64,000 nucleotides of DNA from Eunapius fragilis (lineage: Eukaryota > Porifera > Demospongiae > Spongillida > Spongillidae): NCBI GenBank assembly GCA_963681505.1, contig OY811980.1, positions 1,312,542 to 1,376,541 of the forward strand. Direction: 5' to 3'. Positions 1 to 60,067 of the stretch are shown here, one piece after another. Position numbers and translations under genes: made by a program. A model generated the notes under the pieces. The model was not told where the DNA came from, ran no database searches, and was given only the letters and a program-made list of their open reading frames with translations. Position 1 is the first letter of the stretch, and each line of letters opens with the position of its first letter.

Positions 1-70
1 TGGTACGCGACAAATCCTTTTACCAGAGATAATATATATCTGCTTTTATGACTCTCTCTAAATTTCTCAC

Positions 71-116
71 CTGTAAAGCATACACTTAGAAGAGAGAGAA
101 ACAAAACTGTAGACAT
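71..116 (-). CDS. Exon 1 (signal peptide) of a third receptor gene running off the left edge
   Basis: A 46-base exon starts with ATG at 116-114 and ends in a clean donor (ACAG then gtgaga). It encodes [15 protein letters not shown] plus one carried base, a short hydrophobic leader typical of a signal peptide. It is nearly identical to 33792-33837, which splices in phase to the first Ig exon of gene A. A TATA-like element lies about 85 bases upstream. The remaining exons would lie left of base 1, so the receptor array continues beyond the window. The exon is short and rests on splice logic and on its duplicate; no downstream exon is visible here. Confidence 0.6.
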
Positions 117-59300: not shown

Positions 59301-60067
59301 CTTATGTCATTGTCAGTCAGCTGTCTCCCATCTTTGAACCAGGTTACATTTAGGTAAACATTTGGGTCAGATCCATTATAAATAGCCGAGCATGACAGAA
59401 GGTTGTCTTGGGTAGCATTTCCCAGAGTAACATAAGTCCTCCAATCAGTTGCATCATTATCAAATACATCTGAGGTATTTAACTCTCTGGTGATGAAGAG
59501 TGTCTCTGTGGTGGCAGCTGAAAGAGACATAAAATGGTACTATGAGGTAACCATGACCCCCATTGAAGGAAGGCTCACCAGTCAGAGTGATGTTGGATCT
59601 TATGGTGGTGCCATTCAAAGCAGCAGTGCACTCATATAACCCCGCTGTTGCAGGGGAGAACTTCAGGATTGTCAGTAAAGACGACGTGAGGTTGCTTCTC
59701 GTTGTGGTGGTGATGTGGACGAGAGGAGGATCTTCCGGATTGACACTATCTCTGGTCCAGGAGATAGAGGGCGGTGCCGTATCTCCTGTGGCGGAGCAGA
59801 AGAGGAGGACGACGGACCCGCTTGTCACCGCACTGGACCCGTCTGTACCGCCATCGAGATCTTGCGGTACAGTCTGAAAGGTGACCTGAACACCTGAAGT
59901 CGAATAGGGCCTAATTTACGCACGTATATATTTACAATAAAGCACTAGCCAATTCGAAGACGGAAAAGAAAAGCGGTACTCTAAGACTCACCTTGTGCGC
60001 GGGCTGCGGCAAGCAAGAATAGCGTTGTAACTATTCCTGAGCAAATTAACAACCAGTCCATCACCAT
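42316..60067 (-). CDS. Gene B: receptor-type tyrosine phosphatase, 13 Ig-like + 4 FN3 + TM + 2 PTP (cassette alpha)
   Basis: Complete receptor phosphatase of about 2,487 residues; all exon phases close exactly in my model. Order: signal peptide (59992-60067), 13 Ig-like exons (residues about 26-1426), four FN3 (to about 1833), TM exon 50040-50151, one juxtamembrane exon 49316-49389, PTP D1 (about 1896-2224), PTP D2 (to 2487), stop TGA 42318-42316. The ectodomain is homologous to that of gene A. The TM, JM and PTP parts are instead near-identical in type to orphan cassette alpha, so gene B looks like a hybrid. Its signal exon and promoter are unrelated to those of gene A. The 32-bp minisatellite fills the JM-D1 intron. 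Confidence 0.88.
44452..47659 (-). CDS. Gene B PTP domain 1 exons
   Basis: Exons 47535-47659, 46804-46894, 46672-46745, 46117-46251, 45325-45444, 45007-45167, 44735-44870 and 44452-44595. Motifs [42 protein letters not shown] and [10 protein letters not shown]: all catalytic elements of an active PTP are present. Exon 46117-46251 ends in AAAG followed by gcatgt, a GC donor, as in cassette alpha of copy A. Confidence 0.87.
45783..45884. other. Perfect long hairpin in intron (copy B)
   Basis: Arms of 50 bases (45783-45832, 45835-45884) with a 2-base loop and no mismatch seen. Counterpart of 12200-12299, with changes matched in both arms. Confidence 0.75.
46915..47350. repeat. Expanded about 23-bp minisatellite (copy B)
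   Basis: Many units of gaggtctacaggcatcccct and variants in the first D1 intron. Higher-order repeats (47085-47320) are visible. A plus-strand open frame across it is a by-product. Confidence 0.85.
47727..49305. repeat. 32-bp G-rich minisatellite, about 49 units (copy B)
   Basis: Expanded version of 13719-14395 in the JM-D1 intron of gene B. Unit variants (cacatcat, catatcat, cacaccat) recur in blocks, showing higher-order duplication. Confidence 0.95.
49316..49389 (-). CDS. Gene B juxtamembrane exon
   Basis: 74-base exon encoding [20 protein letters not shown] and PEPT between the TM exon and D1. Phase (TG+C in, A+AG out) fits both neighbours exactly. It is absent from the matching place in copy A, where the minisatellite runs into unrelated sequence. 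Confidence 0.7.
49680..49985. repeat. C-rich minisatellite in TM-JM intron of gene B
   Basis: Units of cctcccacataccctcatgc plus accctccctcac. Confidence 0.8.
50040..50151 (-). CDS. Gene B transmembrane exon
   Basis: Encodes [20 protein letters not shown] followed by [14 protein letters not shown], a clear membrane helix. Acceptor cccacag, donor gtaagg. The sequence differs strongly from the gene A TM although the adjoining FN3-4 exons are nearly identical. Confidence 0.85.
50463..52094 (-). CDS. Gene B FN3 domains 1-4
   Basis: Exons 51765-52094, 51359-51700, 51001-51276 and split FN3-4 (50789-50895, 50463-50628). They are close to the gene A FN3 set. FN3-3 lacks nine residues present in gene A. 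The 3' end of exon 50463-50628 resembles the relic at 14888-14960 more than the gene A exon. Confidence 0.85.
52164..53555 (-). CDS. Gene B membrane-proximal Ig-like exons (3)
   Basis: Exons 53187-53555, 52559-52867 and 52164-52466, phase 1-1. The 53187-53555 domain lacks both Ig cysteines (ISFQV and [12 protein letters not shown]), as in gene A. The gene A exon 25471-25785 has no counterpart. Confidence 0.85.
54057..57481 (-). CDS. Gene B alternating X/Y Ig exon array (3 X, 3 Y)
   Basis: X exons 57176-57481, 56073-56378 and 54853-55158; Y exons 56443-56781, 55224-55562 and 54057-54395. All are intact Ig domains in phase 1-1. The introns upstream of each Y hold long CCCT/CT arrays (gene sense). 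Confidence 0.87.
54482..54770. repeat. (GGGA)n purine array upstream of Y-a
   Basis: Long gggagg array on the plus strand, pyrimidine in gene sense, less than 100 bases from the Y acceptor at 54395. Equivalent arrays precede the other Y exons. Confidence 0.9.
55650..55987. repeat. (GGGA)n/(GAGA) purine array upstream of Y-b
   Basis: Same position relative to the Y exon 55224-55562. Confidence 0.9.
56874..57092. repeat. (GGGA)n purine array upstream of Y-c
   Basis: Same position relative to the Y exon 56443-56781. Confidence 0.9.
57482..58411. other. Large gene B intron without recognisable features
   Basis: 930-base intron between the X-c Ig exon and the 58412-58720 Ig exon. It has a short (CA)n at about 57848-57866 and repeated cagcctagc/atatc motifs near 57960-58040. 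The matching interval in gene A holds the 22-bp minisatellite and the truncated Y exon. Confidence 0.5.
58412..59893 (-). CDS. Gene B N-terminal Ig-like exons 1-4
   Basis: Exons 59579-59893, 59116-59517, 58786-59046 and 58412-58720. Compared with gene A, the second domain has ten extra residues (around SNSSTSQT) and the third differs by short indels (TNSSSSDYG versus TSSDYG). The third lacks the second Ig Cys. The first exon starts GVQVTF after acceptor cttcag. Confidence 0.87.
59992..60067 (-). CDS. Gene B exon 1 (signal peptide)
   Basis: ATG at 60067-60065. It encodes [20 protein letters not shown] plus AARAQ and one carried base; there is a clear hydrophobic core and an ARA-Q cleavage site. 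Donor gtgagt; phase 1 fits the acceptor at 59893. A second in-frame ATG is two codons downstream. It is unrelated to the gene A leader. Confidence 0.8.

Follow-up and report, generated by a model that had tools for sequence, protein, structure and literature searches.

Organization of the array

How do neighboring receptor genes come to share long ectodomain stretches and to differ at both ends? This question is raised by 64,000 nucleotides of the genome of the sponge Eunapius fragilis (assembly GCA_963681505.1, 218.9 Mb in 24 contigs; contig OY811980.1, hereafter C10, positions 1312542–1376541), referred to here as the window. The window covers the right part of an array of four tandem units, U1–U4, which lie on the minus strand over about 120 kb of C10 and are all receptor tyrosine phosphatase genes with immunoglobulin (Ig) and fibronectin type III (FN3) domains. 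Probably, the four genes are adhesion-type receptors descended from two older types (beta in U1–U3, alpha in U4), which exchanged ectodomain tracts and carry tails predicted to be active or impaired.

The array was delineated by self-comparison and a translated-search exon map within the surrounding 200 kb (C10:1220001–1420000), which contain the whole window; coordinates without a prefix are those of the window. Three N runs were found in this region, at C10:1245542–1250541 (5,000), 1272982–1273181 (200) and 1340476–1340675 (200; window 27935–28134). Leftward, the array extends beyond the window to about C10:1,252,300, where homology stops near the 5-kb N run. U1, positioned left of U2, is interrupted by two N runs. 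U2 reaches from window position 116 leftward to near C10:1279950, where its orphan alpha cassette (a second phosphatase cassette, 3′ of beta) ends. The N-free stretch C10:1273182–1340475 (67,294 bases) holds the U1 5′ end, the entire U2 and the 3′ half of U3, and the tandem repeat is therefore independent of the scaffold join; scaffolding alone as the source of the repeat was rejected for the same reason. The following features define the layout within the window:

1..8700, no strand: intergenic flank from the U3 alpha cassette to the U2 start, with a copy at about 33725–42300 (self-comparison)
72..116, minus strand: U2 signal exon (translated-search map); U2 continues leftward out of the window
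27935..28134, no strand: 200-N gap in the U3 Ig block, presumed contig join

Positions 1–810 and 33725–34516 are 96.9% identical (offset 33,724), and a second repeat block, 4747–11082 and 38341–44703, is 98.4% identical (offset 33,594). These blocks bear out a first-pass annotation of the window, which had recognized two units with the same flank offset by 33,724, its unit A being our U3 and its unit B our U4. It had also taken both for receptor phosphatases, which exon homology on the minus strand and, for U4, Pfam matches identify as receptor tyrosine phosphatase genes, and had placed a third gene start at the left edge, where the exon at 116–72 is the same signal exon as that of unit A. This signal exon is common to U1, U2 and U3 (93, 100 and 100% amino acid identity to the query), and the three units likewise share a transmembrane (TM) exon of beta type and the beta cassette. 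In U4, both the signal exon and the TM exon are different, and the cassette is alpha. The repeat and the gene starts of the first-pass annotation stood, but its statement that signal exon and cassette differ between all neighbors did not: U4 alone has a different signal exon, and U4 alone is without beta, which comes first in U1, U2 and U3. The joining of the ectodomain to beta in unit A and to alpha in unit B is correct for the first cassette (21194–16380 and 47659–42316, respectively), but unit A also has alpha (13650–8721). A unit A with beta only was rejected, given the 15-exon in-frame alpha cassette after beta.

The number of Ig exons does differ between neighbors, as the annotation had it. 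Counted from the exon map, there are 13 in U4, at least 17 in U3 (one frameshifted), 31 in U2 (27 open and four frameshifted) and at least 21 in U1, where a gap truncates two and one is frameshifted. The U3 number is a minimum because the 200-N run sits within this unit. The frameshifts may be real or may be assembly errors. Within U2, a 3.6-kb (approximately) internal duplication of Ig modules, with copies 98–99% alike, was observed at C10:1297116–1304451, and the four frameshifted Ig exons of this unit fall in C10:1301247–1303105.

Gene models of U4 and U3

Gene models were obtained for the two units on the right. The U4 gene is composed of the following elements:

42316..60067, minus strand: U4 complete model, 37 exons, 7,488 nt, 2,495 aa, with signal, 13 Ig, 4 FN3, TM-alpha and alpha D1 and D2
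59992..60067, minus strand: U4 signal exon, unlike that of U1–U3
54057..57481, minus strand: three pairs of phase 1-1 Ig exons (P–Q), separated by simple repeats of GAGG/GGGA type
50040..50151, minus strand: U4 TM-alpha exon, without close counterpart in other units
42316..47659, minus strand: U4 alpha cassette, comprising the juxtamembrane (JM) exon, D1 and D2

The spliced frame of U4 is open to one terminal stop, and its introns are GT-AG except for one GC donor. The start codon at 60067 coincides with the end coordinate given in the first-pass annotation, and DNA homology with the other units starts at 59885. Based on a Pfam search of three U4 protein pieces, from which Ig7, Ig8, cyt1 and cyt2 were omitted, the protein contains Ig/I-set, fn3 (four stretches) and Y_phosphatase (two stretches, 520 bits) domains. 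Ig_3 matched both ectodomain pieces, with five and four stretches passing individually; the count of 13 Ig is based on exon homology. According to a PDB sequence ranking, the solved structures closest to the U4 tail are those of PTPRS (4bpc, 2fh7, 3sr9) and PTPRF (6kr4).

The U3 gene comprises:

16380..33837, minus strand: U3 model, 40 exons, 8,502 nt, 2,833 aa, all introns GT-AG
27123..27395, minus strand: frameshifted P-type Ig exon of U3, excluded from the gene model
21845..21947, minus strand: U3 TM-beta exon (exon map and gene model)
16380..21194, minus strand: U3 beta cassette, D1 with WRD (predicted impaired) and D2 with WSE

The model includes the signal exon, 16 Ig exons, four FN3 domains, TM-beta, and beta D1 and D2 with its own stop at 16380; one frameshifted P exon is omitted, and the N gap is treated as an intron. 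The phosphatase (PTP) exons of U3 were assigned by homology alone, and signal and TM were assessed by eye in both U3 and U4. Since every Ig exon in the two models is of phase 1-1, the gain, loss or skipping of Ig exons preserves the frame.

Mosaic structure of the ectodomain

The identity of U4 to U1–U3, followed in 200-base windows, changes in steps. It is 55–59% above window position 53.65k (short aligned lengths), about 94% at 53.46–53.2k and 48–55% around 53.2–52.95k. Across 52.66k–50.75k it is mostly 94–99%, introns included, with a minimum of 91.5% near 52.36k (U2, U3), and past FN4b it drops to about 50–57%. Two tracts were delimited:

53200..53460, minus strand: exchange tract 1 of U4, part of Ig11; about 94% to U1–U3 within a region otherwise at about 50–59%; 0.26 kb
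50789..52700, minus strand: exchange tract 2 of U4, end of Ig12, Ig13 and FN1–FN4a with introns; mostly 94–99%; about 2 kb

Exon constraint alone was rejected as the cause of these differences, as the introns show the same steps. Because the steps cross introns, exon constraint cannot explain them, whereas tract exchange between older paralogues can. The sequence pattern points to recent exchange of this kind, by gene conversion or crossing-over. The synonymous divergence (dS) of U4 from U1–U3 is 0.33–0.36 in Ig11, 0.43–0.45 in Ig12, 0.04–0.12 in Ig13, 0.044–0.055 in FN1–FN4a and 0.18 in FN4b. Between beta D1 and the U4 tail it is 0.61–0.68, a value from the four of seven exons that passed the identity filter. 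The dS set excludes Ig1–4 with U1, whose Ig4 lies in a gap, and module R with U4, which is without R. Diversification of the family by local recombination, as proposed in the first-pass annotation, finds support in the tandem arrangement, in the variable count of phase-1 Ig exons and in the sharp identity steps crossing introns.

The P and Q Ig modules were ranked by their nearest relatives. The nearest relative was found solely in another unit for 11 of 18 open P modules and 12 of 22 open Q modules, and same-unit nearest relatives were somewhat commoner than random (7 vs. 4.4 for P, 10 vs. 5.7 for Q). This ranking covers open modules; the frameshifted and five P-prime modules were omitted. 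It should be noted that minisatellites and GAGG-type repeats adjoin ectodomain and tail exons. We infer that these repeats may contribute to recombination, a role proposed for simple repeats in the sea urchin Sp185/333 family (PMC5103432).

Phosphatase tails and active-site motifs

The beta tail of U3 consists of TM-beta, cyt1, cyt2, JM, D1 and D2, and the mapped U1 and U2 exons are of the same type; between the TM-beta exons of U2 and U3, 26 of 34 residues are covered, at 73% identity. Alpha and beta were compared in 14 listed exon pairs, 13 of which gave a value. D1_4 and D2_f have 93–96% DNA identity and the other eleven pairs 56–87%, and it looks as though single exons, D1_4 and D2_f, were exchanged between alpha and beta.

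The D1 motifs WPD and HCSAGxGRTG are present in U1 beta, U4 alpha and the orphan alpha of U3. In the beta D1 of U2 and U3, the canonical motif is replaced by WRD and HCSS, i.e., WPD is changed to WRD and the alanine at C+2 to serine. An intron interrupts the codon of the P-loop serine that follows the cysteine; this residue was verified. All D2 domains read WSE, and D2 is predicted to be inactive in all units. A serine at C+2 has been reported to abolish the activity of HD-PTP, and S1394A to restore it; an aspartate at that P-loop site is present in the inactive IA2 and IA2-beta (PMC2661844). A review describes the catalytic status of HD-PTP as disputed (PMC8269279). Given the motif changes, one of which is of the kind reported to inactivate HD-PTP, impaired function is predicted for D1 in U2 and U3 beta.

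In U3 and U2, an alpha cassette also stands 3′ of beta. The exon map was searched in both units for alpha-type TM, cyt1, cyt2 and ectodomain exons, and none were found beyond a scrap of FN4b; likewise, no counterpart of TM-alpha was found 5′ of the two alpha cassettes. No alpha exon was mapped between C10:1220001 and the 5-kb N run, behind which an alpha cassette of U1 would fall. The orphan cassette of U3 and its surroundings are as follows:

8721..13650, minus strand: U3 orphan alpha, 15 exons, 592 aa, in frame, splice sites retained, one GC donor as in U4
13717..14393, no strand: 32-base minisatellite 5′ of the U3 orphan alpha, with a longer copy at 47726–49304 between cyt2-alpha and JM-alpha of U4
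14889..14959, minus strand: FN4b scrap (alpha-type last FN3 exon) 5′ of the U3 orphan alpha, in two frames; present in U2 too

The scrap in U2 and U3 and the U4 FN4b both carry GVSP and KTLTS. The U3 orphan is phase-compatible with the cyt2-beta exon (21634–21529), and joining the two leaves an open frame of 2,834 aa. At window 12527 and 46117, alpha D1 has a GC-AG intron that is kept in U2, U3 and U4, and U3 beta has GT there. The U2 orphan is damaged outside the catalytic D1 motifs: its poly-C tract (16 vs. 8 in U4) shifts the frame, a 12-base deletion removes INAN from the YINANY motif, and the proline after WPD is changed to serine (WPDFGVP to VS).

Exon and intron divergence was computed after removal of low-complexity intron sites, with borders taken from the final models. 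In alpha, exons diverge less than introns in each pair: 7/1766 vs. 21/2018 for U2–U3 (p = 0.022), 18/1766 vs. 57/2072 for U2–U4 (p = 9 × 10⁻⁵) and 13/1778 vs. 55/2017 for U3–U4 (p = 2 × 10⁻⁶). In beta, no difference was found in three pairs: 83/2072 vs. 118/2686 for U1–U2 (p = 0.56), 78/2075 vs. 106/2712 for U1–U3 (p = 0.82) and 37/2072 vs. 39/2722 for U2–U3 (p = 0.35); the outcome for beta was the same in kind with all sites retained. Hence, the alpha exons, orphans included, look constrained and the beta exons do not. All of these counts are small, and exon divergence can be lowered by gene conversion in the absence of selection.

Proposed origin of the array and alternative explanations

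The ends of the units (signal exon, TM and phosphatase tail) fall into two divergent lineages, and ectodomain stretches with their introns are much closer to each other than their surroundings are, from which we propose recent tract exchange. The number of P–Q Ig modules varies among the units, and gain or loss of such modules would be frame-neutral. In the adhesion-type receptor phosphatase family, the proteins are single-pass, D1 is the enzyme and D2 is regulatory. Each gene of the array would encode such a single-pass adhesion receptor, with D1 dephosphorylating its targets on ligand binding. Because the beta D1 of U2 and U3 carries the C+2 serine together with WRD and the D1 of U1 beta and U4 alpha is canonical, similar ectodomains would be shown on predicted active (U1 beta, U4 alpha) and predicted impaired (U2, U3 beta) phosphatases, as in paired receptors. 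It is possible, with less support, that the TM-beta exons of U3 splice to either tail.

Several points weigh against this proposal. The evidence comes from the sequence of a single assembly, with gene models for U3 and U4 and descriptions from the exon map for U1 and U2, and the predicted loss of catalysis is read from motifs. Between the stretch that bears U4 and the one that bears U2 and the U3 3′ half lie 200 N, and U4 could belong to the other haplotype. Divergence is 1.4% between the U2 and U3 beta introns within one stretch; between the stretches it is 1.6% in the 6.4-kb flank copy and 2.7% between the U3 and U4 alpha introns. Since these values are of the same order, divergence does not separate paralogue from allele at the join. 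The damage to the U2 orphan speaks against the use of orphan tails, as do the four nonsynonymous and zero synonymous changes in 252 codons of alpha D1 between the U2 and U3 orphans. Furthermore, beta may be relaxing, because its exon and intron divergence does not differ in three pairs; the dN/dS of 0.14 on 18 changes in beta D1 and D2 between U2 and U3 opposes such relaxation.

If the stretch with the 5′ end of U3 and U4 were an alternative haplotype, U4 would be allelic to U3, which would reduce the array to three positions. The 200-N joins at C10:1272982 and 1340476 leave room for this, and the 98.4% identity of the flank copies over 6.4 kb is possible for alleles of a diverse animal. However, U1 5′ end, U2 and U3 3′ half repeat in tandem within 67.3 kb free of N, and the allelic explanation would also need to account for the differences of U4 at both ends and in Ig11–12; we regard it as unlikely. 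The first-pass annotation had itself named alleles joined by the assembler as what would overturn its view, which is improbable for the tandem repeat, since this lies within 67,294 contiguous bases free of N, and conceivable for the join to the U3 5′ end and U4. The annotation had further implied that a cassette moved between otherwise equal units, and a beta-type gene that had received the alpha tail through a single unequal crossing-over near the intron after FN4b would indeed lose homology to the beta units where U4 does, around FN4b and the start of the next intron. The alpha cassette is also at hand 3′ of beta in both units with an assembled 3′ side, U2 and U3. Nevertheless, U4 differs at promoter and signal exon, at TM and tail, and strongly in an Ig11–Ig12 island, with array-like tracts in between, and the GVSP and KTLTS of its FN4b recur in the alpha scrap of U2 and U3, a pattern that one crossover does not yield. 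Two older gene types with exchanged ectodomain tracts fit better than a single swap, which we consider quite improbable.

As for the orphan alpha cassettes, we lean slightly towards dead leftovers without function. This would agree with the broken U2 copy, with the lack of any alpha-type TM, cyt1 or cyt2 exon found in U2 or U3, with the decayed FN4b scrap and with the changes in alpha D1 mentioned above. On the other hand, the U3 orphan is entirely open with intact splice sites, and orphan exons diverge less than their introns, which could be due to gene conversion or to a functional U4 branch.

Genomic context of the array

No close copies of the family were found elsewhere in the assembly, with 4 FN2, 3 JM-alpha and 3 JM-beta exons in total; the next relatives of FN2, among the best 150 of 183 candidates, have 33–45% identity over at most 79 residues. 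A scan for PF00102, in which the best 150 of 365 candidates were scored, gave 192 matches. Of the 150 listed, 128 are on C10, with 96 of them at 6.98–8.2 Mb and 11 in the U1–U4 array (hand count). Because the listed matches cluster on C10, the array appears as a small part of a C10-wide concentration of receptor-phosphatase exons. The 40 kb sampled in the 6.98–8.2 Mb cluster (C10:7246001–7276000 and 7869001–7879000) contain exons that resemble Ig, FN3 and PTP exons and belong to other subfamilies, with 25–79% identity to the array queries.

Some further observations were made. Similar D1 exons recur every 30–58 kb at C10 6.98–7.37 Mb. Five weak pairs of FN3 matches stand in mirror image at C10:5.807–5.841 Mb (e.g., 5813722 on the plus and 5834651 on the minus strand), which suggests an inverted duplication of FN3-bearing genes. 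In the window, open frames of retroelement-like impression on the plus strand (5375–7475, copy 39406–41070) were duplicated along with the intergenic flank. A coding-like stretch on the minus strand (60500–61300), which we take to resemble a hAT-type transposase, lies immediately 5′ of U4, at the point where the similarity between units stops. A 30-base tandem repeat of about 1.2 kb (62138–63357) is open in several frames, with copies 97.5–99% alike. Among 30 candidates, all scored, 18 homeodomain matches were found in the assembly, of which five lie in 0.11 Mb of C16.

Comparison with known receptor systems

The features of receptor-type classical PTPs, i.e., a signal peptide, a single TM and cytoplasmic PF00102 domains, were found in U4 and, by frame and homology, in U3. 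The array genes resemble the LAR-type (R2A) receptors PTPRS, PTPRF/LAR and PTPRD in having Ig followed by FN3 domains, one TM and two PTP domains in tandem (D1–D2), and the D1 motifs of U4 are canonical. Vertebrate LAR types have three Ig and more FN3 domains, whereas the array has 13–31 Ig exons per unit and four FN3 in genes arranged in tandem, with altered D1 motifs in two of the four and with two divergent tails. Because of this number of Ig exons, we did not assign the genes to R2A.

A search of titles and abstract openings, in which subscription journals are poorly covered, found no publication on a receptor-phosphatase array in sponges, and the main texts of PMC7385117 and PMC12909245 never use the word "phosphatase". 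Multiple sponge PTPs were reportedly described by Ono et al. in 1999. The R3 receptor phosphatase of the sponge Amphimedon is likewise an early-animal receptor phosphatase, with a PTP domain resembling PTPRF and PTPRG, but its ectodomain is FN3-only and, by subtype definition, it has one PTP domain; in the main text of that study, the word "tandem" is absent (PMC5336234). HD-PTP (PTPN23) shares the change of alanine to serine at C+2 of the P-loop with U2 and U3 beta D1; unlike these, it is a non-receptor enzyme with WPE, and the aspartate is kept in the WRD of U2 and U3 (PMC2661844).

We know of no Sp185/333 proteins that are receptors with enzymatic tails. Like the sponge array, the Sp185/333 genes of sea urchins are clustered and similar, adjoin simple repeats and underwent segmental duplication, and recombination, gene conversion and deletion have been suggested for them (PMC5103432). 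Variation between individuals has been shown there, whereas the sponge array is known from one assembly (PMC5103432 for the sea urchin). In a transcriptome of sponge grafts, cell-adhesion and aggregation-factor genes were without significant enrichment (PMC5450542).

In vertebrate paired receptors (KIR, LILR, SIRP), similar ectodomains are kept alike by exchange and carry tails of different output. A similar ectodomain on different tails is also found in the array as far as the exchange tracts reach, with Ig11–12 partly diverging strongly. In contrast to these systems, both tails of the array are phosphatase pairs, which differ in predicted catalytic competence. To our knowledge, the genes for self/non-self receptors of sponges are not settled, and the array may have a role in such recognition, as the first-pass annotation suggested. 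It is very doubtful that the locus is a full paired-receptor system of the sponge, with a homogenized ectodomain on active (U1 beta, U4 alpha) and dead (U2, U3 beta) tails, a tail switch by splicing in U3 and a self/non-self set across C10. Nevertheless, the tandem family, whose ectodomain modules are exchangeable and whose tails differ in predicted catalytic state, offers a concrete candidate for sponge self/non-self receptors, and this single array illustrates how recognition may be uncoupled from signaling through exon-phase symmetry and tract exchange.

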